Assembly: GCA_026989135.1 (NCBI GenBank)
Contig: JALSJZ010000138.1
Coordinates: 1 to 47,396, forward strand
Length of the DNA: 47,396 nucleotides
Reading direction: 5' to 3'
Source of the DNA: Sedimenticola sp.
GTDB taxonomy: Bacteria > Pseudomonadota > Gammaproteobacteria > Chromatiales > Chromatiaceae
Below are positions 1,140 to 21,756 of this stretch, piece after piece. How positions within the stretch are numbered: the first letter of the stretch is position 1; every line of letters begins with the position of its first letter. The notes under the pieces are model-generated. The model searched no databases and was not told where the DNA came from. It worked only from the letters and a program-made list of their open reading frames with translations. A program made the translations under genes and the position numbers.

Positions 1140-4055
1140 ATGGAAAAATCTATAGAATCTGTCCTTTACGGGACAAATCTCACCTTTGTTGCTGAGCTTT
1201 ATGCGCGGTACCTGAAAAACCCCCAGAGCGTTGATTCAAGCTGGTGCTCTTTTTTCTCTCAACTGGGGGATGATGAGGTTGCTGTATTGCAGGATTTGGA
1301 TGGTGCCAGTTGGGCCTCAGCCTCTTCAAGTGTGGTTAAGGCAGACGCTGAACCAGCTGCCACAGTGCCATCAAACAATATTGAAAATACTGGGCGCGAG
1401 GCGACGCTGCACTCCATTCGGGCGTTGATGCTGGTACGTGCCTATCGTGTGCGCGGACATCTGAATGCCAGCTGTGACCCGCTGGGCCTGGAGGCCAAAG
1501 AGATTCACCCGGAGCTGGACTACAGAAGCTACGGCTTCAGCGACGCGGATCTGGATGAGTCCATCTTTATTGATCATGTGCTGGGGCTGGAATGCGCCAC
1601 CCTGCGGGAGATCATTCAGATATTGCAGGAGACCTATTGCGGCAATATTGGTGTTGAGTTCCTGCATATTCAGGATCCTGACCAGAAATCCTGGATTCAG
1701 TGTCGCATAGAGGGCATCCACAACCAGACCTCATTTACCGAGAAGGGAAAGAGGGCAATATTGGAACGCCTGGTCGAGGCCGAGGGGTTTGAGCAGTTTC
1801 TGCACACCAAACATACGGGTACTAAACGCTTTGGTCTGGATGGTGGTGAGAGCCTGATCCCGGCGATGGAGCAGATCCTTAAACGCGGTGGCCAGCTTGG
1901 AGTCAAAGAGGTGGTTATTGGCATGCCGCACCGTGGTCGGCTCAATGTGTTGGCCAATGTGATGCGCAAACCCTATCGGACAATCTTTGCCGAATTTTTG
2001 GGTCGCCCCTCTCACCCGGAAGAGGCACAGGGCTCTGGCGATGTGAAATATCATCTGGGCACCTCGGCCGATCGTGAGTTTGATGGCAACCTTGTCCACC
2101 TGTCGCTAACCGCCAATCCCTCGCATCTTGAAGCTGTCAACCCGGTCGTGCTGGGCAAGGTGCGGGCAAAGCAGGCGCACACTGAGGATGCTGAGCAACA
2201 ACAGATCATGGGGTTGTTGCTGCATGGTGATGCCGCTTTTGCCGGGCAGGGGCTGGTTCCTGAGTCGCTGGATCTGGCTCAGCTGAAGGGATACCAAACG
2301 GGTGGAACCATCCACTTTATTGTCAACAACCAGATCGGCTTTACCACCAACCCTAGCTATTCCCGCTCTTCACCCTATCCATCCGATGTCGCGAAAATGA
2401 CGCAGACACCGATCTTCCATGTCAACGGTGATGACCCGGAAGCGGTGGTTCATGTCGCCCGGATTGCCACGGAGTTTCGCCAGAAGTTCAAGCACGATGT
2501 TGTGATTGATATGTTCTGTTATCGGCGCTATGGCCATAATGAGAGTGATGAACCCTCGTTTACCCAGCCGATCATGTACCGGGCCATTGCCAAACATAAG
2601 ACGATCAGCCAGATCTATGCAGAGCAGCTGATAAGTGAAGGGCTGTTGACCCCTGCCCAGGCCGATCAGATCACCAATGATTTCAAGGCCCGGCTGGAGC
2701 GGGATTTTGCATCGGCTGACGACTTTACCGCAGACAAGGCCGATTGGCTGGAGGGCAAGTGGGAGGGGCTGAGCATTCTTCAGGAGGAAGAGGAGTTTCA
2801 CAACGATGCAACGACAGTACCCATCGACCAGCTGCAACGGATTGGTGCGGCGCTGATTCGCCAGCCGGAAGATATCCTGCTGCATCGCAAGATTCTCCGG
2901 TTGTTTAAAAACAAGCAAAAGATGCTGGAGTCGGGAGCAGGTTTTGACTGGGCAACGGCCGAGGCATTGGCCTTTGGCTCATTGCTGTGTGAACAGATTC
3001 CGATACGTCTGTCAGGCCAGGATTCGGGGCGTGGAACCTTCTCCCACCGCCACTCGGTATTGGTCGATCAGCAGAATGAACAGCGTTATATCCCGCTGAA
3101 TCATCTTGCCGATCAGCAGGCCCGATATGAGGTGATCGACAGCCCTCTCTCCGAAGCCGCCGTTCTGGGTTTTGAGTATGGCTATACCCTCTCCGAGCCC
3201 AATGCCCTGGTGATCTGGGAGGCGCAGTTTGGTGATTTTGCCAATGGTGCCCAGGTGATCATCGACCAGTTCATCAGCTCTGGTGAATCAAAATGGCTGC
3301 GCCTCTCCGGTCTGGTCATGCTGCTGCCACACGGTTATGAAGGGCAGGGGCCAGAGCACTCTTCAGCCCGGCTGGAGCGCTACCTTCAGCTCTGTGCCGA
3401 AGACAATATCCAGGTGGTCAACCTCACCACACCCGCCAACTACTTTCATGCCTTGCGGCGACAGGTGCATCGTAATTTTCGTAAACCGCTGATTGTCATG
3501 GCACCAAAATCACTGCTGCGCCACAAGCAGTGTGTCAGCACACTGGCCGATATGGGGCCAGACTCGCTCTTTCACCGGGTGATTGGAGAGAGCGGCTCCC
3601 TGGTGGCGGATGAGAGCGTCAGACGTGTCGTGCTCTGTAGCGGCAAGGTCTATTACGACCTGCTGCAAGCGCGCCAAACCCAGGGTATTGATGATGTGGC
3701 CATTGTGCGGGTCGAGCAGCTCTACCCCTGGCCGCGAGACAGCCTGGTCGAGGTGGTCAAACGCTATCAGAATGCAGAGTTGATCTGGTGTCAGGAGGAG
3801 CCAGCCAATATGGGCGCCTGGCTGTTTGTGATGCCGCGCCTGCAATTTATACTGGACGCGATCCAATGTGCTAATGATCGCCCGGTCTTTGTCGGGCGGG
3901 CGGCCTCAGCCTCTACTGCCACCGGCTCTATGGCCAAACACCGGGAAGAGCAGAACCTGCTGGTAGAGCAGGCATTGAATGTCTCATTGGCAGAGCTGCA
4001 ACAACCCTTTCGGCGAGCCACTCCACTGGCTGGCCTGACGCAACCTTCTGAATAA
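1140..4055 (+). CDS. sucA: 2-oxoglutarate dehydrogenase E1 component
   Basis: This is the thiamine-diphosphate E1 subunit of the 2-oxoglutarate dehydrogenase complex, which decarboxylates 2-oxoglutarate and passes the succinyl group to the SucB lipoyl arm in the cytoplasmic TCA cycle. The 971-residue product is slightly longer than the roughly 930 usual in Proteobacteria. The N-terminus (residues 5-40) has the conserved [16 protein letters not shown]-type segment that docks on E2. The region [13 protein letters not shown] and the TPP site (a GDAAF stretch near residue 363, then NNQIGFTT) are present. The transketolase-like C-terminal half has [12 protein letters not shown] and [12 protein letters not shown]. 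The ATG at 1140 has only a weak Shine-Dalgarno. The stop is 19 nt before sucB, indicating one operon. The family is certain. Confidence 0.97.
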
Positions 4056-4074
4056 AAAACTGATTGAGGACATT

Positions 4075-5289
4075 ATGGATATAGAGATTACGGTTCCTAC
4101 CATTGGTGAATCAATAACGGAAGCGACGGTGCTGAAATGGCTGAAGTCTGTTGGTGAAACGGTTACGCTGGATGAACCGCTGCTGGAGCTGGAGACAGAT
4201 AAAGTGACCATTGAGGTCAACGCCCCGGCTGCAGGCCTGCTCAATAAGATTCTGGTGGATGAGGGGGAGGATGTTGATATTGGCGCAGTGCTTGGCCTGA
4301 TTGCGGAAGCGGACTCAGTAGCGGCAGAGAGACCCTCTTCAGCAGCAGCTGAGCCGGAAGCCCCCCCGGCAGCGGCAGAGGATGAGGTGCTGATGCCTGC
4401 TGTGCGTCGGCTGGTGGAGGAGCACAGGCTGAACCCGGCCGCCATCCCAACAGCTGGCAGAGATGGGCGGCTGACCAAAGGTGATGTACTGGCCTATCTT
4501 GAGACGGCCAAGGCAGAGCCAACGCCGGTGCGCGCAGCAGAGGCCGTTCCGACATCAGCTGCAACTGAGGCTCCTGCTGTCACGCAGCCTCAGGAAGAGC
4601 GTGTGCGTATGACCCGCTTGCGCAAACGTATGGCAGAGCGCCTGAAAGAGGCCCAGAATACAGCCGCCATGCTGACCACCTTCAATGAAGTGGATATGAC
4701 CAACTGCATGGAGATGCGCAGCTGCTACAAAGAGCTGTTTGAGAAAAAACATGGGGTGCGTATCGGCTTTATGTCACTCTTTGCCAAGGCCTGCGTGATT
4801 GCCCTGCGGGAATTTCCGGCCATCAATGCGCAGATTGATGGTGATGAGATTGTCTATAAAAATCACTATGACATCGGTGTCGCGGTAGGTTCTGGCCAGG
4901 GGTTGGTGGTGCCTGTCATACGCGGGGTAGAGAACCTTGGTTTTGCACAGATAGAGAGCAAGATTCGAGAGCTTGCAGACAGAGCCAAAACGGGGCAGCT
5001 CACCTTGGATGAGTTGCAGGGTGGTACATTTACCATTACCAACGGCGGCATCTATGGCTCCATGATGTCGACCCCCATCCTCAACAGCCCGCAGTCTGGT
5101 ATCCTCGGCATGCACAATATTACCCAGCGGGCGATGGTGATGCCGGATGGCAGCATTCAGGCACGCTCCATGATGTACCTGGCGCTCTCCTATGATCACC
5201 GTATTGTCGATGGGCGTGAAGCGGTGGGTTTTCTGGTGCGAATAAAAGAGTGCATAGAAGATCCGCAACGCATGCTGCTGGAAGTGTGA
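4075..5289 (+). CDS. sucB: dihydrolipoyl succinyltransferase, E2 of 2-oxoglutarate dehydrogenase
   Basis: E2 core of the complex: it carries the swinging lipoyl arm and moves the succinyl group to CoA. Visible domains are one lipoyl domain at residues 1-76 with the modified Lys43 in ETDKVTIE, an Ala/Pro/Glu-rich linker, and an E1/E3-binding domain at about 104-142 ([10 protein letters not shown] ... GRLTKGDV). A second linker and the catalytic acyltransferase domain from about 175 follow. The active-site DHRIVDG motif (His375, Asp379) lies near the C-terminus. Length 404 matches the family. It is translated 19 nt after sucA and 52 nt before lpdA. The single lipoyl domain and the SucA partner favour succinyl- over acetyltransferase. 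Confidence 0.97.
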
Positions 5290-5341
5290 CGGGCACCCTG
5301 CCACCCTGCTTGTGAGCCATCCAAACCTAGAGAATAATAAA

Positions 5342-6751
5342 ATGAGTGAAAACAGATTTGACCTGACCGTAATCGGCGGCGGACCTGGGGGGTATGTAGC
5401 CGCCATTCGAGCCGCTCAACTGGGGCTGCGAGTTGCCTGTGTAGACAAGCGCGGCGTACCGGGCGGCACCTGCCTGAATGTAGGCTGTATCCCCTCCAAG
5501 GCGCTGCTGCAATCCTCCCACCACTATGAACATGCCGCAGAAGAGTTTGCCAAACATGGCATCCAGACCGGCTCACTGGATATGGATACAGCGGCCATGA
5601 TGGCGCGCAAAGAGAAGGTGGTGATGGATCTGACCAAAGGGATCGAGTTTCTCTTCAACAAAAACGGTGTGACCTATTTAAAAGGAACGGGTGAACTGAC
5701 TGCCCCGGATCAGGTGAAGGTTACCCTGCTGGAGGGTGATGAACAGCTGCTCTCCAGCGCCAATGTGCTGATTGCCACAGGCTCTGATGTTGCCACACTG
5801 CCGGGGCTTGAGATTGATGAGCAGCGCATCGTCTCAAGCACAGGTGCGCTCAGCCTGGATAGAGTCCCCGCCAGCCTGGTTGTCATAGGTGGTGGTGTGA
5901 TCGGTCTGGAGCTGGGTTCTGTATGGCGACGCCTGGGCGCAGAGGTTACCGTGGTCGAGTTTCTGGATACCCTGCTGCCGGGCATGGATCAGGATATTCG
6001 CAAACAGATGCAGCGCAGCATGAAAAAGCAGAAGATGAAGCTGAAACTCTCCACCAAGGTCACCGCTGCGGTTGCCGATGCAGATGGCGTCCAGCTTACT
6101 TTGGAGTCCGTTGAAACGGCTGCCGTTGAAACCCTGCAGGCAGATATTGTACTGGTGGCAGTTGGCCGTCGACCCTACACATCCGGGCTGGGGTTACAGC
6201 AGATCGGCGTCGCGCTGGATGAACGTGGCTTTATTGATGTGGACGAGCACTTTAAAACCAATATCAATGGTGTCTATGCGGTGGGGGATGTGATTGGTGG
6301 TGCCATGCTTGCGCACAAAGCAGAGGAGGAGGGTATGGCTCTGGCTGAACATCTGGCAGGCAAACCGGGTCATGTGAACTATGCGGCCATTCCAGGAATC
6401 GTCTACACCTCGCCTGAAGTGGCCAGTGTTGGCCGTACCGAAGATGGCCTGAAGCAGGATGGTGTCGCTTACAATGTAGGCAAATTTCCTTTTAGCGCCA
6501 ATGCACGGGCACGCTGCAATGGAGAGACCGAAGGGTTTGTAAAGATACTGGCGGATGCGAAAAGTGACCGGGTACTGGGTGTGCATATAGTCGGGCCCAA
6601 TGCCGGCGACCTGATTGCTGAGGCGGTTATTGCCATAGAGGTTGGTGCCTCGGCTGAAGATATTGCCCGCACCTGCCATGCCCACCCCAGCATGGGCGAG
6701 GCACTGAAAGAGGCCGCAATGGATGTGGATGGTCGGGCCATCCATATTTGA
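5342..6751 (+). CDS. lpdA: dihydrolipoyl dehydrogenase (E3)
   Basis: FAD flavoprotein that reoxidises the dihydrolipoyl arm of E2 and reduces NAD+. The N-terminal GGGPGGY binds FAD. The redox-active disulfide is Cys44-Cys49 in GGTCLNVGCIPSK. A second GxGxxG (VVIGGGVIGLELGS) binds NAD, and the catalytic pair is His448-Glu453 in HAHPSMGE. The start is set at the ATG at 5342, giving 469 residues that begin with the FAD fold; an in-frame GTG at 5312 would add ten unconserved residues. It is the last gene of sucAB-lpdA, followed by an intrinsic terminator. It may also serve other lipoyl complexes if no other E3 is encoded. Confidence 0.96.
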   Translation: MSENRFDLTVIGGGPGGYVAAIRAAQLGLRVACVDKRGVPGGTCLNVGCIPSKALLQSSHHYEHAAEEFAKHGIQTGSLDMDTAAMMARKEKVVMDLTKGIEFLFNKNGVTYLKGTGELTAPDQVKVTLLEGDEQLLSSANVLIATGSDVATLPGLEIDEQRIVSSTGALSLDRVPASLVVIGGGVIGLELGSVWRRLGAEVTVVEFLDTLLPGMDQDIRKQMQRSMKKQKMKLKLSTKVTAAVADADGVQLTLESVETAAVETLQADIVLVAVGRRPYTSGLGLQQIGVALDERGFIDVDEHFKTNINGVYAVGDVIGGAMLAHKAEEEGMALAEHLAGKPGHVNYAAIPGIVYTSPEVASVGRTEDGLKQDGVAYNVGKFPFSANARARCNGETEGFVKILADAKSDRVLGVHIVGPNAGDLIAEAVIAIEVGASAEDIARTCHAHPSMGEALKEAAMDVDGRAIHI

Positions 6752-13345: not shown

Positions 13346-14764
13346 TTAGCTGATGTCGGCCAGAATGGCGTCCACACTGGCCTTTGCATCACCGTATAGC
13401 ATACGGGTGTTGTCTCTGAAGAAGAGCGGGTTATCCACACCGGCATAGCCCACACCGCGGCCACGTTTCATTACAACCACAGTGCCTGAGTTCCAGACCT
13501 CCAGCACAGGCATGCCTGCGATGGGGCTGTTTGGATCATCCAGCGCACTTGGGTTGACGATATCATTGGCGCCAATGACCAGCACTACATCGACTTGCGG
13601 CAGATCATCATTGATCTCATCCATCTCCAGTACGACGTCGTAAGGCACCTTGGCCTCTGCCAGCAGTACATTCATGTGGCCTGGCATACGGCCAGCCACC
13701 GGGTGGATGGCAAAACGGACATTGATATCCTTGGCGCGCAGCTTGCGGGTAATGTCGTTGATGGTGTGCTGTGCTTGCGCTACGGCCATGCCATAACCGG
13801 GTACGATCACCACCTCTTTGGCGTTGAGCAGCATCTCTGCGGTCTCATCTGCTGAGGTCTCCGGGGCATACTCCTGTTGTTCCCCATCAGCTGCTGGCGC
13901 TGCTACGCCACCTTCTGAACCAAATCCACCTGCGATAACAGAGATGAACTTACGATTCATGGCGCGGCACATGATATAGGAGAGGATGGCTCCGCTTGAG
14001 CCTACCAGTGCGCCGGTAACGATCAGCAGATCATTGTTGAGCATGAAGCCGGTAGCCGCTGCTGCCCAACCGGAATAGCTGTTGAGCATAGAGACCACAA
14101 CGGGCATGTCCGCACCACCGATGGCCATCACCATATGTACGCCAAAGATAAAGGCGATAAGGGTCATGACGATCAGTGCTGTAACCGCTCCACTGCTATG
14201 CTCGCCACCGACAAAGACGCCACCGAGGATGATGCAAGCCACACCCAGGCCAAGATTCATCCAGTGCCGTCCAGTCAGGGTGAGTGGCTTGCTGGTGATG
14301 ATCCCTTTGAGCTTGCCAAATGCAACCACAGAGCCGGTAAAGGTGACCGCACCGATCAGCACGCCAATGTAGATCTCAATCTCATAGATGGTTTTGGCTG
14401 CGCCCTCCATGGTATGCCCGCTATCACCGGCAATGCCGAAGTAACCGGCATAGCCAACCAGTACTGCAGCCATGCCGACAAAGCTGTGGAGTATGGCAAC
14501 CAGCTCTGGCATCTCGGTCATCTGCACCCTTTTTGCCAGAAACAGCCCGATAGCACTACCAATAACCATGGCGATAATCAGCCAAGCGTAGCCGGCACCA
14601 TGAACCTCCGGGCCAAGGATGGTGGCGGCCAGCGCCAACCCCATACCGATCATGCCGTAGAGATTGCCGCGACGAGCCGTCTCCTGATTGCTCAGACCGC
14701 CAAGCGCGAGAATAAACAGTACCGAAGCGACAATGTAACAAATTGTCTGTAAACCTTCATTCAT
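13346..14764 (-). CDS. pntB: NAD(P) transhydrogenase subunit beta
   Basis: Membrane subunit with the NADP(H)-binding domain III of the proton-translocating transhydrogenase, which uses the proton gradient to make NADPH from NADH. About two thirds are hydrophobic helices beginning at the N-terminus ([17 protein letters not shown]). The remainder is the soluble domain III with the NADP site [13 protein letters not shown] and the late [11 protein letters not shown] segment. Length 472 is close to the usual 462. It starts 12 nt after pntA. The divergent plus strand contains only shadow frames. The gene is the last of the acn-pntA-pntB set and ends at a shared terminator. Confidence 0.96.
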
Positions 14765-14776
14765 CTCTATATCCTC

Positions 14777-16345
14777 TTAGCGCTGAAACATCTTCAGCAT
14801 ACGCTGAGTGACGGCGAAACCGCCTGCAATATTAATGGTGGCGATCAGAACGGCGATAAATGCCAGAAAGACCACCAGTCCGCTTGAGCTTGAGACCTGC
14901 AACAGAGCTCCCACCACGATGATGCCGCTGATGGCGTTGGTAACACTCATCAGTGGGGTGTGCAGTGCTGGTGTCACATTCCAGATCACCATGTAGCCGA
15001 TGAAGCAGGCGAGCACAAAGACCGTGAAGTGCGCCAGAAAATCGGGCGGTGCAACCTGACCCAGCATGGCCAGCAGGATGCCACCGATGCCGAGGCCGAT
15101 GAAGCCGCCTACGGGACTCTTCTTTTCCTCTTTGACCTCAACCGGCGGTGAGGCAGTCGCGAGTGCCGGTTTCGCAGGGGCGGCTGAGACCTCGATGGGA
15201 GGCGCAGGCCAGGTGATCTCACCCTCTTTGATTACGGTAGCGCCACGGACAACCACATCTTCAAAGTCGACAACAATATTGCCGTCCTTTTCAGGGGTCA
15301 TGTCGGTCAGCAGGTGACGCAGGTTGGTGCCATAGAGCTGGCTGGACTGTGCCGCCAGGCGGCTGGGCAGATCGGTGTAACCAATGATGGTAACGCCATG
15401 TTTCACAACCGCCTTGCCCGGCTCGGTGAGGGCACAGTTGCCACCCTGTTCAGCAGCCAGATCAACGATCACGCTGCCATCTTTCATGGATTCAACCATG
15501 CCGGAGGTGATCAGCTCAGGAGCCGGTTTGCCGGGGATCAGAGCGGTGGTGATGATGATGTCGACCTCCATCGCCTGCTCGGCGAAGAGCTTCATCTCGG
15601 CTTCGATGAACTCCTTGCTCATGGTCTTGGCGTAGCCGGTGTTCGGGGAGCCGTCGTCTGCCTCTTCGAACTCAAGCATCAGGAACTCAGCGCCCATGCT
15701 CTCGACCTGCTCTTTAACCTCAGGGCGGGTATCGAAGGCACGCACGATCGCGCCCAGGCTGTTGGCGGCACCAATGGCGGCAAGACCCGCAACACCGGCA
15801 CCGATCACCATCACCTTGGCTGGCGGTACTTTACCCGCAGCAGTGATCTGACCCGTGAAGAAGCGACCAAAGGCATTGGAGGCTTCAATGATGGCGCGGT
15901 AACCCGCGATATTGGCCATGGAGCTGAGGGCATCCAGCTTCTGTGCGCGTGAGATACGCGGTACGCTGTCCATTGCGATGACGGTGGCTTTACGCGCCTT
16001 CAGGCTCTCCAGCAGCTCTTCATTCTGGGCGGGCCAGATAAAGCTGATGAGATGGCCGCCTTCGCGCAGCAGCTCGGTCTCGTGCGCACCGAGTGCAGGG
16101 TGAGGCTCTGGTGCGCGCACCTTCATAATGATGTCGGATTCAGCCCAGAGGGTTCTGGCATCTTCAATAATCTCAGCGCCAGCCTCTTTATAGGCTTCAT
16201 CAGAGAAGTTGGCGGCAGCACCTGCCCCGGTCTCGATAGCCATCGCAAAACCCAGTTTGCGGATTCGTTCGACGGTTTCAGGGGTTGCAGCGACACGTTT
16301 TTCGTTGTCGTGAACCTCTTTTGGGATACCAATTTTCATGGACAT
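14777..16345 (-). CDS. pntA: NAD(P) transhydrogenase subunit alpha
   Basis: NAD(H)-binding subunit of the same inner-membrane proton pump. Residues 1-380 form the two Ald/PntA-type domains. The NAD motif is [18 protein letters not shown], and the conserved [15 protein letters not shown] follows. The C-terminal 110 residues carry four membrane helices ([16 protein letters not shown] ... [14 protein letters not shown] ... [13 protein letters not shown] ... [14 protein letters not shown]). Length 522 is that of the fused alpha subunit. The ATG at 16345 has AAAGGA upstream, inside the end of acn; a second ATG lies two codons later. It is 6 nt downstream of acn, so it is co-transcribed with aconitase. 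Confidence 0.96.
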
Positions 16346-16351
16346 GCCTGT

Positions 16352-18274
16352 TTATCCTTTGCGGGTTGCTTTGAACATAGGTAGTGCGCCACCGGCTTTC
16401 AGTGTCTCCACATCACCTGGCTCGAAAGCCGGGTTCAGGGCGATCTTTTCGCCGTTGACTTCAAGGAACAGATCGCCTTCCAGGTTGGATACGTCGATAG
16501 AGACGGTGTCGCCCTGAGAGATCTTGTCGTAGTCAGCCTCGTTGGCAAAGGTCAGCGGTACGATGCCGAAGTTCACCAGGTTGGCAACGTGGATGCGCGC
16601 AAACTGGGCAACCACAACGGCACGGATACCGAGCCAGCGTGGGCAGAGTGCTGCGTGCTCGCGGGAGCTGCCCTGGCCATAGTTTTCACGACCCACGATG
16701 ATGCCGTGACCGCCTGCATCGCGATGTTCGCAGGCGCGGCGGGAGAAGCTGGGATCTACCTGGTTGAAGGTGGCCTGCATGGCGTACTCTTTGACGTTGG
16801 AGCGCAGTGGCAGGAAGATGCCAGCAGGCTGGATGTCGTCTGTGCTGATATTGTCGCCCAGTTTCAGCAGCACTTCACCGGTCAGTTTTGCAGGCAGTGG
16901 CTCAAAATCTGGCAGCGCCATGATGTTGGGGCCGCGGATCACCTCAACCTTGGCGGCCTCCTCGGGAGGCGGAGGCATGATGAAGGAGTCGGTGTCAATC
17001 ATCTGAGGCACATCCTTGAACTTGACGGGTTCGCTGCCCGGCAGGGTGATCTCGCCGGTCAGTGCGCTGACAGCAGCTACGATCGGGCTGACCAGGTGAA
17101 CCTGGGCGCTCTCGGTGCCGGAGCGTTTGGGGAAGTTGCGGTTGAAGGTACGCAGGGAGATGCCGTTGCTTACCGGAGAGCCGCCCTGGCCGATACAGGC
17201 ACCGCAGCCGTTCTCTTGAACACGCACGCCAGAGGCAAGCAGGGTGGTCATGTAACCGGCTTCAGCCAGCTGCATGGCCACTGCGCGTGAGCCCGGATAG
17301 AGCAGGGTATCGACCTTGACACGCTTGCCTTTCAGGATCTCGGCGAAAGAGGCGATGTTCTCGTAGGAGCTGTTGGTGCAGCTGCCGACAGAGACCTGAT
17401 GGATCTTGGTGCCCGCGTGATCGGCAACCTTCTCCACATTGCCTGGAGAGGGGTAGATGGCGATCAGTGGCTCCAGCGCGGAAAGATCGATATCGATGGT
17501 TTTGTCATACTCAGCACCGTCATCAGCAGCCAGTGGTTGATAATCGCCACCGCGCTGACGGCTCTCCAGAAATTCTTGAGTCCGCTCGTCACTGGGGAAG
17601 ATGGAGGTGGTCGCACCCATCTCAGCGCCCATGTTGGTGATGGTGGCACGTTCGGTCAGTGAGAGGCTGGCAACACCAGGGCCTGCATATTCAAAGATGA
17701 TACCTTTGCCGCCTTTGACGCCGTTGATCTCCAGCATCTTCAGGATGACCTCCATCGCCATGGCGCCATGGCTCAGTGCGCCAGTCAGATTGACCTTGAC
17801 CACCTTGGGCATGGGCATGCTGTAGTGGCCAGTGGCCATCGCCAGAGCGATATCGTAACCGCCTGCGCCCATAAAGATGGCACCACAACCGCCGGCGTTG
17901 ACGGTGTGGCTGTCAGCGCCCAGGCCAGTCATGCCCGGCTTGACAAAGTTTTCCATGTTCAGGAAGTGGCAGATGCCGGTGCCGGGTGGTGAGTAGATGA
18001 TGCCCAGCTTCTCGGCCACAGTTCTCAGGTATTCGTGGTCGTCCGGGTTGCGAAAACCGACCTGCAGCATGCTGTGGTCAACAAAGTTTACAGAGAGTGG
18101 TTTGACACGGTCTACACCCATCGCCTCCAGTTGCAGCATACACATGGTGCCGGTGGCGTCCTGTGTAAAGGCTTCGTCGATCTTGATCTTGATCACTTCT
18201 CCTGCGGCTGGCAGGGTGCCACCATCAACGAGATGCTCTTGCAGGATTTTTTCGGTCAAGGATAACGGCTTCAT
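16352..18274 (-). CDS. aconitate hydratase (compact, Aquifex-type length)
   Basis: [4Fe-4S] enzyme interconverting citrate and isocitrate. The cluster Cys residues are in SVGSCTNSSYEN and ENGCGACIGQGG. Substrate-loop motifs are GLGADSHTVNAGGCGAI and the swivel-domain GRENYGQGSSREHAAL. At about 640 residues it is shorter than AcnA (about 890) or AcnB (about 865) and matches the mitochondrial/Aquifex-like type. The start is placed at 18274 because GGGGA lies 8 nt upstream; the ATG at 18289 would add five residues and has no ribosome binding site. It heads acn-pntA-pntB and is divergent from the fumarate reductase-like genes. No IRE-like or riboswitch structure was seen in the leader. Confidence 0.93.
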   Translation of the reverse strand: MKPLSLTEKILQEHLVDGGTLPAAGEVIKIKIDEAFTQDATGTMCMLQLEAMGVDRVKPLSVNFVDHSMLQVGFRNPDDHEYLRTVAEKLGIIYSPPGTGICHFLNMENFVKPGMTGLGADSHTVNAGGCGAIFMGAGGYDIALAMATGHYSMPMPKVVKVNLTGALSHGAMAMEVILKMLEINGVKGGKGIIFEYAGPGVASLSLTERATITNMGAEMGATTSIFPSDERTQEFLESRQRGGDYQPLAADDGAEYDKTIDIDLSALEPLIAIYPSPGNVEKVADHAGTKIHQVSVGSCTNSSYENIASFAEILKGKRVKVDTLLYPGSRAVAMQLAEAGYMTTLLASGVRVQENGCGACIGQGGSPVSNGISLRTFNRNFPKRSGTESAQVHLVSPIVAAVSALTGEITLPGSEPVKFKDVPQMIDTDSFIMPPPPEEAAKVEVIRGPNIMALPDFEPLPAKLTGEVLLKLGDNISTDDIQPAGIFLPLRSNVKEYAMQATFNQVDPSFSRRACEHRDAGGHGIIVGRENYGQGSSREHAALCPRWLGIRAVVVAQFARIHVANLVNFGIVPLTFANEADYDKISQGDTVSIDVSNLEGDLFLEVNGEKIALNPAFEPGDVETLKAGGALPMFKATRKG

Positions 18275-18289
18275 TTGGATAGTCCCCAT

Positions 18290-18627: not shown

Positions 18628-19287
18628 ATGACAGACAAGCATTCTATGAGAGAAATGGGCGAAAAGCTGGTCAATGTAAAGATTGATGGCAAGGCGATTA
18701 CTGCCCCGGCCTCATTGTCGGCTATCCAGGCGCTGTGGTATGCCGGTTATTCACGTATTAAAAGTGTCGGCTGCCTTGAAGGCGTCTGCGGCTCCTGCCG
18801 CGTGCTGGTTCGGCGCGCGGGGAATTCTGAGGTGCGCACCCAGCTGGGGTGCCAGACGCTTATAGAGGAGGGGATGCAGGTGATGTTTCTGGTCTTTCCC
18901 CGCCCCACGCACCACACCTATAAGCTGGAGGAGATCAGCAGTTCGTGGGAGGTGCAGACCAAGTTCCATAAAATTTTCCCTGAGGCAAGCCGTTGCCGGG
19001 AGTGCCGTGGTTGCAATGCCTCTTGTCCTAAAGGAATCGATGTGATGAAGGGGGTGGCGTTGGCAGCCAGAGGCCGCTTTCGTGAGGCGGGTGAGCTGTT
19101 TGTTGAGTGTGTGATGTGTGACCTCTGCCTGACTGCTTGCCCTGAGCTGATTGCGCCCAACCATGTCGGGCTGTTTTCTCGACGGGTGACCGCCTATTTT
19201 CATACGCGTCCATCAAATCTGATTCGACGCCTGGAAGGGCTACAGCGAGGTAAGTTTGAGGTCAATATAGAAGGTGAGAAGCCATGA
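18628..19287 (+). CDS. fumarate reductase/succinate dehydrogenase-like iron-sulfur subunit
   Basis: 219-residue electron-transfer subunit. A plant-type [2Fe-2S] site is Cys49, Cys54, Cys57 (CLEGVCGSC) and Cys75. Two ferredoxin motifs follow: Cys123/126/129/133 (CRECRGCNASCP) and Cys161/164/167/171 (CVMCDLCLTACP). Ordinary SdhB/FrdB proteins have CxxxxxCxxxCP for the last, [3Fe-4S], centre; here the full CxxCxxCxxxCP predicts a second [4Fe-4S] cluster. There is no transmembrane helix and no anchor gene nearby. The start at ATG 18628 follows an in-frame TTG; an ATG at 18646 is also possible. It overlaps the flavoprotein gene by ATGA. It resembles the ferredoxin-like part of thiol:fumarate reductase TfrB but lacks the C-terminal CCG domains. 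Confidence 0.85.
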   Translation: MTDKHSMREMGEKLVNVKIDGKAITAPASLSAIQALWYAGYSRIKSVGCLEGVCGSCRVLVRRAGNSEVRTQLGCQTLIEEGMQVMFLVFPRPTHHTYKLEEISSSWEVQTKFHKIFPEASRCRECRGCNASCPKGIDVMKGVALAARGRFREAGELFVECVMCDLCLTACPELIAPNHVGLFSRRVTAYFHTRPSNLIRRLEGLQRGKFEVNIEGEKP

Positions 19288-20897
19288 CGGGCATCTCTTA
19301 TTCAGAGGCGCTGGCGCACTACCAGGCTGCCAAATCCCGTGATCTGAAAAAGTCTGATATGGCAACGGATGAGTTGCTGCAAGCCTTTCACCCGGATTAC
19401 CGGGAGGATTCGCTGGTCTCCCTGTGTGTAGGGCCAAACCAGGGTGACAGCTGCCATCGGCAGTTGGCTGAGTTGCTACAATCTGATGCACGCATTGATG
19501 AGGCGGATCTGGCTGGTGCCTCCATTGTGCAGACCGATGTGCTGGTTATCGGCGGCGGTGGAGCCGGTTGTGCGGCTGCCCTGATGGCAGAGCAGGCTGG
19601 TGCAAGGGTTATCATGGCCACCAAACTGCGCCTCGGCGACAGCAACACAGTGATGGCTGAGGGGGGCATTCAGGCATCGATTGAACGAGGTGATACGCCA
19701 CAAATGCACCTGGATGACAGCCTGAAGGCGGGCCATTACCGGGGCGACCCAAAACTGGTGGCCAAGATGGTGATGGATGCACCGGATGTGATCCGCTGGC
19801 TGATCCAGCAGGGGATGCAGTTTGATCTGGATGAGTTTGGTGATCTGATGACGCGCCGAGCGGGCGGCACCTCTGCGGATCGTGTGGTCTATTACCGTGA
19901 TTACACCGGGCTGGAGATGATGCGCGCACTGCGTGAGTCGGTGCGTAACAGCAAGATCGATGTCTGGGACTACAGCCCCGTCGTGGAGCTGATGTCCAAC
20001 GAGTCCGGCCATTGCGCCGGTGCGGTCATCTCCAATCTGAAGGATTGCAGCTATGTGCTGATCGAGGCGCAGACAGTGATTCTGGCAACCGGCGGTATTG
20101 GCCGCATGCATCTCAATGGTTTTCCCACCTCAAACCACTTTGGTGCCACGGGTGATGGCCTGGTATTGGCCTATCGTCTGGGGGCTAAACTGCGTGATTT
20201 GGACTCCTTTCAATACCATCCTACCGGTTTGGCCCATCCACAGCACCTGGCTGGCACGCTGATTACAGAGGGGGTACGCTCTGCGGGTGCCCAGCTTTTG
20301 AATGGGCTGGGTGAGCGTTTTGTCGATGAGCTAAAGACCCGGGATCATGTCTCGGCAGCCATCCTGAAGGAGTGTGCCGAGGGGCGCGGGGTGCGGGTCG
20401 ATGAGAATGCCGTCGGCGTCTGGCTGGATACGCCGGGTGTGGAACGCACGAACCCTGGTATCCTCGCAAAGCGTCTGCCAAAGCTGGTAGAGCTGGGTAA
20501 TAAGTGCGGTATCAATCCGGTCGAGATGCCGCTTTTGGTCTATCCGACACTGCACTATCAGAATGGCGGCGTGGTGATTGATGAGCATGGGCAGAGCACC
20601 GTGCCGGGGCTATATTGTGTCGGCGAGGTCTCGGGTGGAATCCACGGGCGCAACCGGATCATGGGGAATGCCCTGCTGGAGATCATCAGTTTTGGGCGAC
20701 GCGCAGGCCTGCAGGCGGCTGAGATGTCACATGGCCGTGGGCATAAAAAGGTCACCATTGGACATCTTAGCAAACTGCGACGTGAGCTGGCCGTAGCCGG
20801 AATGCCGATGGAGGTGAAGGGGCCGATGCTGTTCCCGGAGTGTGCCAAGTTTGAAAAGGATGCAGACTATGAAGGGTTCCGGCGAAAAAAGCAGTAG
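19284..20897 (+). CDS. fumarate reductase/succinate dehydrogenase-like flavoprotein subunit
   Basis: 537-residue FAD protein of the SdhA/FrdA/L-aspartate oxidase family. The FAD motif VIGGGGAGCAAA is at residues 88-99, after an unusual N-terminal extension of about 84 residues. In the position of the covalent-FAD His of SdhA there is Asn (GDSNTVMAEGGI), predicting non-covalent FAD. Dicarboxylate-site signatures are kept: QYHPTGL, EGVRSAGAQLLN, TRDHVSAA and HGRNRIMGNALLE. The partner Fe-S gene overlaps by four bases, which argues for a fumarate reductase or succinate dehydrogenase rather than NadB, since NadB works alone. The electron donor or acceptor is unknown; with no SdhC/D here the enzyme is probably cytoplasmic. 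Confidence 0.85.
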   Translation: MTGISYSEALAHYQAAKSRDLKKSDMATDELLQAFHPDYREDSLVSLCVGPNQGDSCHRQLAELLQSDARIDEADLAGASIVQTDVLVIGGGGAGCAAALMAEQAGARVIMATKLRLGDSNTVMAEGGIQASIERGDTPQMHLDDSLKAGHYRGDPKLVAKMVMDAPDVIRWLIQQGMQFDLDEFGDLMTRRAGGTSADRVVYYRDYTGLEMMRALRESVRNSKIDVWDYSPVVELMSNESGHCAGAVISNLKDCSYVLIEAQTVILATGGIGRMHLNGFPTSNHFGATGDGLVLAYRLGAKLRDLDSFQYHPTGLAHPQHLAGTLITEGVRSAGAQLLNGLGERFVDELKTRDHVSAAILKECAEGRGVRVDENAVGVWLDTPGVERTNPGILAKRLPKLVELGNKCGINPVEMPLLVYPTLHYQNGGVVIDEHGQSTVPGLYCVGEVSGGIHGRNRIMGNALLEIISFGRRAGLQAAEMSHGRGHKKVTIGHLSKLRRELAVAGMPMEVKGPMLFPECAKFEKDADYEGFRRKKQ

Positions 20898-21171: not shown

Positions 21172-21540
21172 ATGTCAGATACAGATCAGCGCGGTGACAA
21201 CAGCACCAAACAGGAGTCAGCACAGCTGTTGGGGCTGTGGGCTGTAACCATGGTGGTTGCGATTATATTTATTTCATCGCTCTCCACACGCAGCACAGAT
21301 GACGCAAAAGAGCCTGCTGAGGCAACGGCACAAATAGTGGCACCGCCTCTGGATACGGCGCAGACACTGGCACCGCTTCCGCCGGGGCATCCAAGCATCG
21401 AGCAGTTGCGTGCTGAGGCAGAAGCTGCGCTGCCGGTTATGCCTGGGCTGCCTGCGGGGCATCCTCCATTGGATGCGGTACCGGCCTCGACTCCAGCTGT
21501 TGCACCAGTTGAGGCTGCCAAAGCTGATAACCAATATTGA
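21172..21540 (+). CDS. small membrane-anchored Pro/Ala-rich protein with twin P-x-GHP motifs
   Basis: 122 residues, not recognised as a named family. A hydrophilic N-terminus is followed by one transmembrane helix (LGLWAVTMVVAIIFISSL, about residues 20-37). A Pro/Ala-rich tail of about 85 residues follows, probably on the periplasmic side. The tail carries two copies of a motif: LPPGHPSI and LPAGHPPL, about 30 residues apart. A good Shine-Dalgarno (GGAGGAG) precedes the ATG at 21172, supporting real translation. It is monocistronic between the inverted repeat and trxB. Function is unknown; similar GHP motifs are seen in low-complexity tails of envelope or cytochrome-related proteins, which is only a suggestion. 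Confidence 0.7.
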   Translation: MSDTDQRGDNSTKQESAQLLGLWAVTMVVAIIFISSLSTRSTDDAKEPAEATAQIVAPPLDTAQTLAPLPPGHPSIEQLRAEAEAALPVMPGLPAGHPPLDAVPASTPAVAPVEAAKADNQY

Positions 21541-21756
21541 CAGGAAAAAGACTGTCAGTGCCAAGGTGGGGGATATTCTCTTTGACTGCAAGCCGCCACC
21601 TCTGGAGGTGCTGAATAATGACCCCAGCGCAAAACAGCTGGCAACCTTGCATCGTCGGCACTTGGTTACAAAGGCTCAGTAAAATATAAGCCGGGAGCAA
21701 TAAAAAGCCCCGCAGCCTTCTTAGCACTCCGGCTCCGACAATGTCAGCTTGGTAAG

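Follow-up and report, generated by a model that had tools for sequence, protein, structure and literature searches.

In a 47,396-nucleotide stretch of DNA from Sedimenticola sp. (contig JALSJZ010000138.1 of assembly GCA_026989135.1; hereafter, the window), two overlapping genes encode an iron-sulfur (Fe-S) electron-transfer protein resembling FrdB and a catalytic flavoprotein resembling FrdA. From their sequences and genomic company, we consider it probable (roughly 0.75) that these proteins belong to a soluble three-subunit NADH:fumarate reductase, in which an NADH module resembling NuoF would replace the quinone anchor, and that this enzyme would serve a reductive branch of the tricarboxylic acid (TCA) cycle. 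This figure and the grades given below to the other explanations are rough and overlap slightly. The linkage with a NuoF-like gene, the co-occurrence of the genes, the retained cofactor and catalytic residues and the pathway context were all observed in this analysis. A previous reading of the window, made from its letters only (the sequence-only reading), had proposed a two-subunit fumarate reductase/succinate dehydrogenase without an anchor. Its sequence observation is confirmed and its interpretation is partly supported. Below, labels in L and G denote loci and genomes of our comparison sets, and labels in C denote contigs of the window's own genome.

A NuoF-like gene linked to the pair

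Window-type pairs were gathered from 40 loci (23 from the set of 142 genomes, 11 further loci and 6 plasmid or chromid records; L006 and L144 are one contig and were counted once). In 31 of them, the genes for the Fe-S protein, the flavoprotein and a NuoF-like protein are contiguous, in this order. These comprise 15 mapped loci, 9 loci mapped later, the 6 plasmid or chromid records, and G076, which was placed by coordinates, its flavoprotein not being viewed. Among the other nine loci, a contig edge interrupts four, and the remaining five, which all belong to the window's genus, are split. The six plasmid or chromid records carrying the trio, one of them annotated as such, are alpha- and betaproteobacterial. 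An orthologue of the NuoF-like protein (at least 600 bits) was found in all 22 pair-bearing genomes among 142 relatives, versus 1 of the 120 others (Fisher test without correction for relatedness, P = 6e-25). The sole pairless genome with this orthologue, G003, belongs to the same genus and is 94% complete. The sequence-only reading had described a two-subunit enzyme, a claim that the third gene does not support, and had expected a non-quinone electron partner, which fits a protein of the NADH-binding type. Because this NuoF-like partner is kept (31/40 contiguous), NADH is the likely donor rather than a thiol or ferredoxin.

The NuoF-like protein (about 415 aa) matches the Pfam domains Complex1_51K, SLBB and NADH_4Fe-4S. 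All 24 aligned rows, in which one gene appears twice, contain the GEET sequence and the four-cysteine motif, and 22 of the 24 have the FMN glycine motif. The protein resembles NuoF of complex I and its counterparts in NAD-linked hydrogenases and formate dehydrogenases in its FMN, SLBB and 4Fe-4S domains, but differs from these modules in its association with a fumarate reductase-like pair, and no NuoE-type gene was found that belongs to it. In the window's genome, it is encoded apart from the pair, at C106:13921-15165, where it is followed by korA, korB and genes for an 827-aa, an RnfB-like and a PFOR-like protein; beyond these come sucC, sucD and rnf genes (named by eye).

The two open reading frames (ORFs) of the pair are not a product of chance, as the window-type Fe-S protein recurs in 22 of the 142 genomes (the window's own included), with 67-96% identity in the other 21. 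Relative to the nearest relative, 80 synonymous and 14 nonsynonymous changed codons were counted in the flavoprotein gene, and 44 and 9 in the Fe-S gene; relative to the more distant L006, these numbers are 213 and 133, and 80 and 78, respectively. In a sample of the class, 13 of 369 genomes have a window-type Fe-S match (E <=1e-40). Among 398 genomes sampled across the phylum, the window type was found only in its own genome, and 29 others have a paralogue with 28-35% identity. In PLSDB, seven records are of the window type (44-52% identity) and one, from Ilyobacter, belongs to the paralogous type linked to hdr genes (Hdr-type; 32%). Six of the seven were mapped, and one Cupriavidus metallidurans plasmid match (H2) was left out.

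Neither protein of the pair contains an SdhC/D-like hydrophobic stretch, and no anchor gene was seen among the ORFs adjoining the pair (the E. coli FrdC and FrdD families were not searched). In the own genome, Sdh_cyt (PF01127) has only two matches, both on contig C119 next to a complete sdhAB. The absence of an SdhC/D-like gene nearby is therefore as first read, and a soluble enzyme is supported by the same observations.

Cofactor motifs and relatives of the two subunits

The Fe-S ORF is counted from an ATG, with a TTG one codon 5' of it, and shares the four bases ATGA, starting at 19284, with the flavoprotein ORF, an overlap that had already been noticed (Table 1). The [2Fe-2S] motif and the two full CxxCxxCxxxCP motifs claimed from the sequence are borne out by alignment. 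None of the 12 cysteines is lost in any of the 28 window-type or 46 paralogous Fe-S proteins aligned, whereas the genome's own SdhB and the SdhB and FrdB of E. coli have a single CxxCxxCxxxCP motif each, with I or V in the column of C164. Owing to this extra cysteine, the third cluster is probably a [4Fe-4S] cluster. On the SdhB/FrdB model (dhsB, TIGR00384), the protein scores 26.7 bits, below the cut-off of 88. A profile comparison with SdhB (105 columns, E 7.9e-11) covers the [2Fe-2S] domain; the dicluster half is a looser match, because the second cluster motif of the window protein pairs with the first of SdhB. The Fe-S matches of G001 and G058 cross one TAA, at which their ORFs (215 aa and 211 aa) stop. 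The pair of G076 (L034) is absent from every alignment.

Table 1. Positions of the pair, its motifs and the divergent neighbouring genes in the window
Feature	Position	Strand	Evidence or remark
Fe-S electron-transfer subunit (FrdB-like), 219 aa	18628..19287	+	Fer2_4 and Fer4 dicluster matches
[2Fe-2S] ligands C49, C54, C57, C75	18772..18852	+	aligned with SdhB/FrdB CxxxxCxx[CD]...C
First CxxCxxCxxxCP motif, C123/126/129/133	18994..19026	+	alignment
Second CxxCxxCxxxCP motif, C161/164/167/171	19108..19140	+	C164 is the extra Cys relative to the SdhB/FrdB compared
Catalytic flavoprotein subunit (FrdA-like), 537 aa	19284..20897	+	FAD_binding_2, 1.7e-78
Asn121 replacing the covalent-FAD histidine	19644..19646	+	alignment
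Active-site residues H312, T328, E329, R332, R353, H424, R458	20217..20657	+	alignment to E. coli FrdA
Aconitate hydratase	16352..18289	-	divergent neighbour, retained in several relatives
pntA, NAD(P) transhydrogenase alpha	14777..16345	-	neighbour, retained in several relatives
pntB, NAD(P) transhydrogenase beta	13346..14764	-	neighbour, retained in several relatives

The flavoprotein has an N-terminal extension of about 80 aa and no C-terminal match to PF02910. None of the curated models listed is matched above its cut-off: the best NCBIfam model, TfrA (NF004900), gives 333 bits, far under 718, the L-aspartate oxidase model NadB 306 bits (cut-off 453) and the SdhA/FrdA model 302 bits (cut-off 567). 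Its FAD_binding_2 domain and FrdA-type catalytic residues place it in the SdhA/FrdA/NadB superfamily. Among 28 aligned window-type flavoproteins, the catalytic His, Glu and Arg of E. coli FrdA are retained; T328 is replaced by Ser in six of them, and one truncated row is gapped at two sites. The position of the covalent-FAD histidine is occupied by Asn in 28/28 window-type proteins and in 37/37 paralogues, and by His in 4/4 SdhA/FrdA sequences. E. coli FrdA lacking this histidine still reduces fumarate and oxidises succinate poorly; therefore, the window enzyme would run toward succinate.

With the SdhAB and FrdAB of complex II, the pair shares the FAD fold, the catalytic H/R/E residues and the [2Fe-2S] domain. 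Unlike them, it has Asn for the covalent-FAD histidine, no PF02910 match, an additional cysteine in the second full motif and no anchor gene nearby, and it falls on a separate side of the tree. This flavoprotein tree contains 61 rows (28 window-type, 27 from the Hdr-type clade, 4 SdhA/FrdA and 2 NadB) and no TfrA, flavocytochrome or Aquificota sequence, and its long branches call for caution. Of 43 paralogous flavoproteins, 6 were too short to align; the tree leaves out 10 of the other 37, which were aligned. The window type and the Hdr-type clade fall on separate sides of a branch (support 92/79 and 100/99), and jointly they stand apart from SdhA/FrdA, represented by only four rows, and NadB (100/100). 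The own genome (2.6 Mb, 98.9% complete) also has an ordinary sdhCDAB on C119, including an ordinary SdhB. The case that the sequence-only reading had named as its refutation, a pair placed by a tree inside quinone-linked SdhAB and an anchor gene elsewhere in a genome with no second sdhAB, therefore did not come about. We reject an ordinary SdhAB whose anchor lies at a distance, since the anchors accompany their own sdhAB and the tree placement is separate, and we also reject an identity with NadB: the column of Glu121 (E. coli numbering), which we take to be a functional residue of NadB, holds A or P in 28/28 window-type proteins, and a true NadB is encoded on C128 (943 bits).

The nearest relatives in the tree are the Hdr-type pairs. 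In the own genome, such a paralogue lies on C19, in a cluster of the order HdrC-HdrB-FeS-FAD-HdrA-MvhD-FdhB-like-FeS-NAD(P) (L069:2420-11839), where HdrB (CCG), MvhD and the NAD-binding subunit were named with Pfam, and HdrA and HdrC by eye. It is a candidate bifurcating fumarate reductase. Clusters of the HdrC-HdrB-FeS-FAD-HdrA-MvhD type were found in 16 mapped loci of the own genome and its relatives. For the 29 paralogues found in the phylum sample, flanks of at most 1.5 kb were viewed, and no match to hdr genes was found in them. Both types have the 12 cysteines and Asn121 in common, but their Fe-S proteins are only about 30% identical, and the window type forms its own clade, linked to NuoF-like genes rather than to Hdr neighbours. 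In Ilyobacter polytropus (L138:615-13224), the Hdr-type pair lies between genes for aspartate ammonia-lyase and aspartate aminotransferase, which points to fumarate derived from aspartate.

A soluble NADH-dependent fumarate reductase (FrdABCDE) is reportedly part of the reductive TCA cycle of Hydrogenobacter and would resemble the enzyme proposed here in these traits. The subunit list of the Aquifex enzyme differs from ours, the distinction being made by description, not from sequences. The table of PMC10052474 gives five proteins for the soluble Aquifex enzyme, with FrdD as nox and FrdE as dmsB2 and none named NuoF; a NuoF-like subunit in the Hydrogenobacter enzyme, considered at first, gains no support from that table and was abandoned. 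In the open-licence literature searched, we found no description of a fumarate reductase pair linked to a NuoF-like protein, which would be a novel form of soluble NADH-type fumarate reductase with a predicted activity.

Pathway context and neighbouring genes

The sequence-only reading had placed the pair in a reversible or reductive TCA branch, divergent from aconitase, and both points agree with our results. The acn and pntAB genes are divergent from the pair in the window and in several relatives. In the own genome, ATP-citrate lyase, both malate and isocitrate dehydrogenase, and a 2-oxoacid:ferredoxin oxidoreductase (korAB) are matched, and sucC and sucD were named by eye; despite the ATP-citrate lyase match, no match to the RuBisCO large subunit was found in it. 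The genes around the trio encode consecutive reactions of the reductive branch. Elsewhere, korAB directly follows the trio in 12 contiguous loci, mdh lies beside the Fe-S gene in L085 and L148, in L150 sucCD come next, with sucC overlapping the end of the NuoF-like gene, and in L076 both suc genes are found further downstream. In Burkholderiales, the neighbours of the trio include DctA (L135), a DASS transporter (tested in L136 and assigned in L139-L141 from similar N-termini) and the class II fumarase fumC_II (L139). ATP-citrate lyase was detected in 17 of the 22 pair-bearing genomes versus 9 of the 120 without the pair; the trio is therefore tied to the reductive TCA cycle yet not confined to it. 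The window also carries sucA, sucB and lpd (1140-6751), which encode an oxidative 2-oxoglutarate dehydrogenase, and the own genome seems to possess both directions of the 2-oxoglutarate step.

Other genes in these regions are also worth recording. The 827-aa protein is encoded directly after korB in the own genome and in several relatives (L093:12351-14834); it has no NCBIfam match and, in Pfam, only a C-terminal 4Fe-4S domain. The PFOR-like protein (L093:15781-19899; 1373 aa to the end of the stretch) contains internal ferredoxin-like stretches and scores 151.8 bits on the PFOR model, versus 911. In the window, a 122-aa ORF (21172-21682) represents the remaining N-terminal part of a gene intact in L072 and L073, with a further fragment in a different frame. 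The intact counterpart (361-373 aa) has a C-terminal part resembling carbonic anhydrase, named by eye from the sequence.

Alternative electron donors and the proposed electron route

In thiol:fumarate reductase (Tfr), the TfrB subunit has two full 4Fe-4S motifs and CCG domains. The window Fe-S protein shares the two motifs with TfrB, and TfrA is the best-scoring model of the flavoprotein. The sequence-only reading had likened the pair to Tfr without CCG domains; the absence of the domain stands (no Pfam match to PF02754 in the Fe-S protein), and the likeness does not, given the flavoprotein score of 333 out of 718 bits and the NuoF-like partner. A thiol- or Hdr-linked fumarate reductase, fed by HdrCB/HdrA as in Tfr or in the Hdr-Flx system of the Riftia symbiont, perhaps through the HdrABC of C19, nevertheless has the TfrA match and the sister clade on its side, with its 16 mapped Hdr-type clusters and the Ilyobacter pair beside aspartate ammonia-lyase. 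Moreover, 'tfrAB' of Endoriftia is described with Hdr-Flx in a reductive TCA cluster, with KorABCD between HdrA and HdrBC (PMC11636981). This Riftia layout resembles the Hdr-type loci (e.g. L056 and L065), not the window type. A fumarate reductase gene upstream of hdrA is also reported from large sulfur bacteria including Thiomargarita (PMC4914600). We regard such a donor as unlikely: the two types of flavoprotein are separated in the tree, the C19 cluster has an FeS-FAD pair of its own, 11 of the 22 window-type genomes have no match to the Hdr-type paralogue, and no hdr gene adjoins the mapped window-type pairs except in L082, where an HdrB-like gene (25%) and sdh-like genes lie between acn and the Fe-S gene.

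The remaining alternatives concern the role of the NuoF-like protein or the substrate. A complex of the same make-up could bifurcate, NADH reducing fumarate and ferredoxin together and delivering low-potential ferredoxin to KorAB and POR; if so, the fumarate step would itself power CO2-fixing steps through the neighbouring KorAB. The energetics permit it by textbook potentials, korAB adjoins the trio in 12 loci, and NuoF-like proteins are the core of the Bfu bifurcating enzymes (PMC9304861). According to the same source, NuoF-like proteins without clusters B2-B5 are non-bifurcating. The present protein aligns only to residues 131-524 of the 597 of HydB, has no Pfam match to a C-terminal ferredoxin domain (the B2 ligands were not checked) and, unlike the Bfu family, has no NuoE-like BfuC subunit: the only PF01257 (NuoE-type) match above cut-off in the genome lies on C20, where it directly precedes another nuoF, which is taken to be that of complex I. 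Bfu-type bifurcation was therefore set aside as quite improbable. We give no greater credit to an NADH-linked 2-oxoacid oxidoreductase, in which the NuoF-like protein would belong to KorAB and the FeS-FAD pair would have another donor. The own-genome NuoF-like gene does adjoin korAB and not the pair, an arrangement seen in G000 and G017 (the G017 pair being cut at a contig edge), G000 being the one of the five split-pair genomes of the window's genus in which the neighbourhood of this gene was mapped. However, contiguous trios lack an adjoining korAB of this kind in L051, L076, L084, L087, L088, L144, L150, L152, L153 and the six plasmid records. Finally, the enzyme could oxidise or dehydrogenate another dicarboxylate such as L-aspartate, or pass electrons from succinate to NAD. 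The similar scores on the L-aspartate oxidase and SdhA/FrdA models (306 and 302 bits) speak for this, as do L152 and L153, where nadB lies directly 5' of the trio. Against it stand the residues in the Glu121 column and the true NadB of the genome; in addition, reducing NAD with succinate is strongly uphill, and a non-covalent FAD favours reduction. We consider this reading about as improbable as the two before it.

Several observations nonetheless weigh against the proposed NADH:fumarate reductase. The best model of the NuoF-like protein is NuoF, with 402 bits for a cut-off of 559, and no NuoE-like partner was found for it in the own genome with PF01257. In the window's genus, its gene is not adjacent to the pair, the link being made through orthology, and next to korAB, here as in the 12 contiguous loci, it could serve KorAB. 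The pairing of the second cluster motif with the first of SdhB leaves the correspondence of motifs unsure, and AlphaFold predictions of the two proteins, built on alignments with 7 and 6 rows, reached pLDDT values of only 39.2 and 34.2, respectively. As for the pathway, the role would not always be the reductive TCA cycle, because 5 of the 22 pair-bearing genomes have no ATP-citrate lyase match and C. metallidurans reportedly has no such cycle (PMC2864759). The korAB models cover 2-oxoacid:ferredoxin oxidoreductases in general and the beta subunit is under its cut-off (229 vs. 262 bits), so that 2-oxoglutarate is only a presumed substrate. The presence of nadB directly upstream of the trio in two gammaproteobacterial loci (L152:7705-12896 and L153:7781-12965) is not accounted for by this reading.

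For the NADH:fumarate reductase, we infer complex formation, the order of electron flow, the substrate and the direction as follows. NADH would give a hydride to the FMN of the NuoF-like subunit, from which single electrons would leave through its [4Fe-4S] cluster. They would then cross the window Fe-S subunit by way of its two [4Fe-4S] clusters and its [2Fe-2S] cluster and end on the non-covalent FAD, where fumarate would be reduced to succinate. The NADH module would thus occupy the position of SdhCD in complex II, and a low-potential [4Fe-4S] cluster at the third place would suit it better than the quinone-facing, high-potential [3Fe-4S] cluster. With textbook potentials of -320 and +30 mV, electron transfer from NADH to fumarate releases about 67 kJ/mol; the uncoupled reaction would therefore act as a one-way valve. 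In the reductive branch, the succinate formed would be passed on to SucCD and KorAB, and sdhCDAB and 2-oxoglutarate dehydrogenase would handle the oxidative direction.

In Gammaproteobacteria that oxidise sulfur and have a reductive TCA cycle, the electron route to fumarate has so far rested on models, one of which is the Hdr-Flx of the Riftia symbiont (PMC11636981). A catalytic pair of the complex II type that carries an NADH module of the complex I type would offer a simple, modular solution and makes the donor a directly testable question. It may also account for Rmet_4300 of C. metallidurans, listed as an additional NuoF homologue (PMC2864759), which is probably the NuoF-like gene of L135. 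With a match to ATP-citrate lyase and none to RuBisCO, the cycle may be the main CO2-fixing route of the organism, the search for such routes having covered these two. As its genome carries an NADH-type and an Hdr-type system, sdhCDAB, and both 2-oxoglutarate dehydrogenase and KorAB, the set that is expressed could determine the direction of the cycle.

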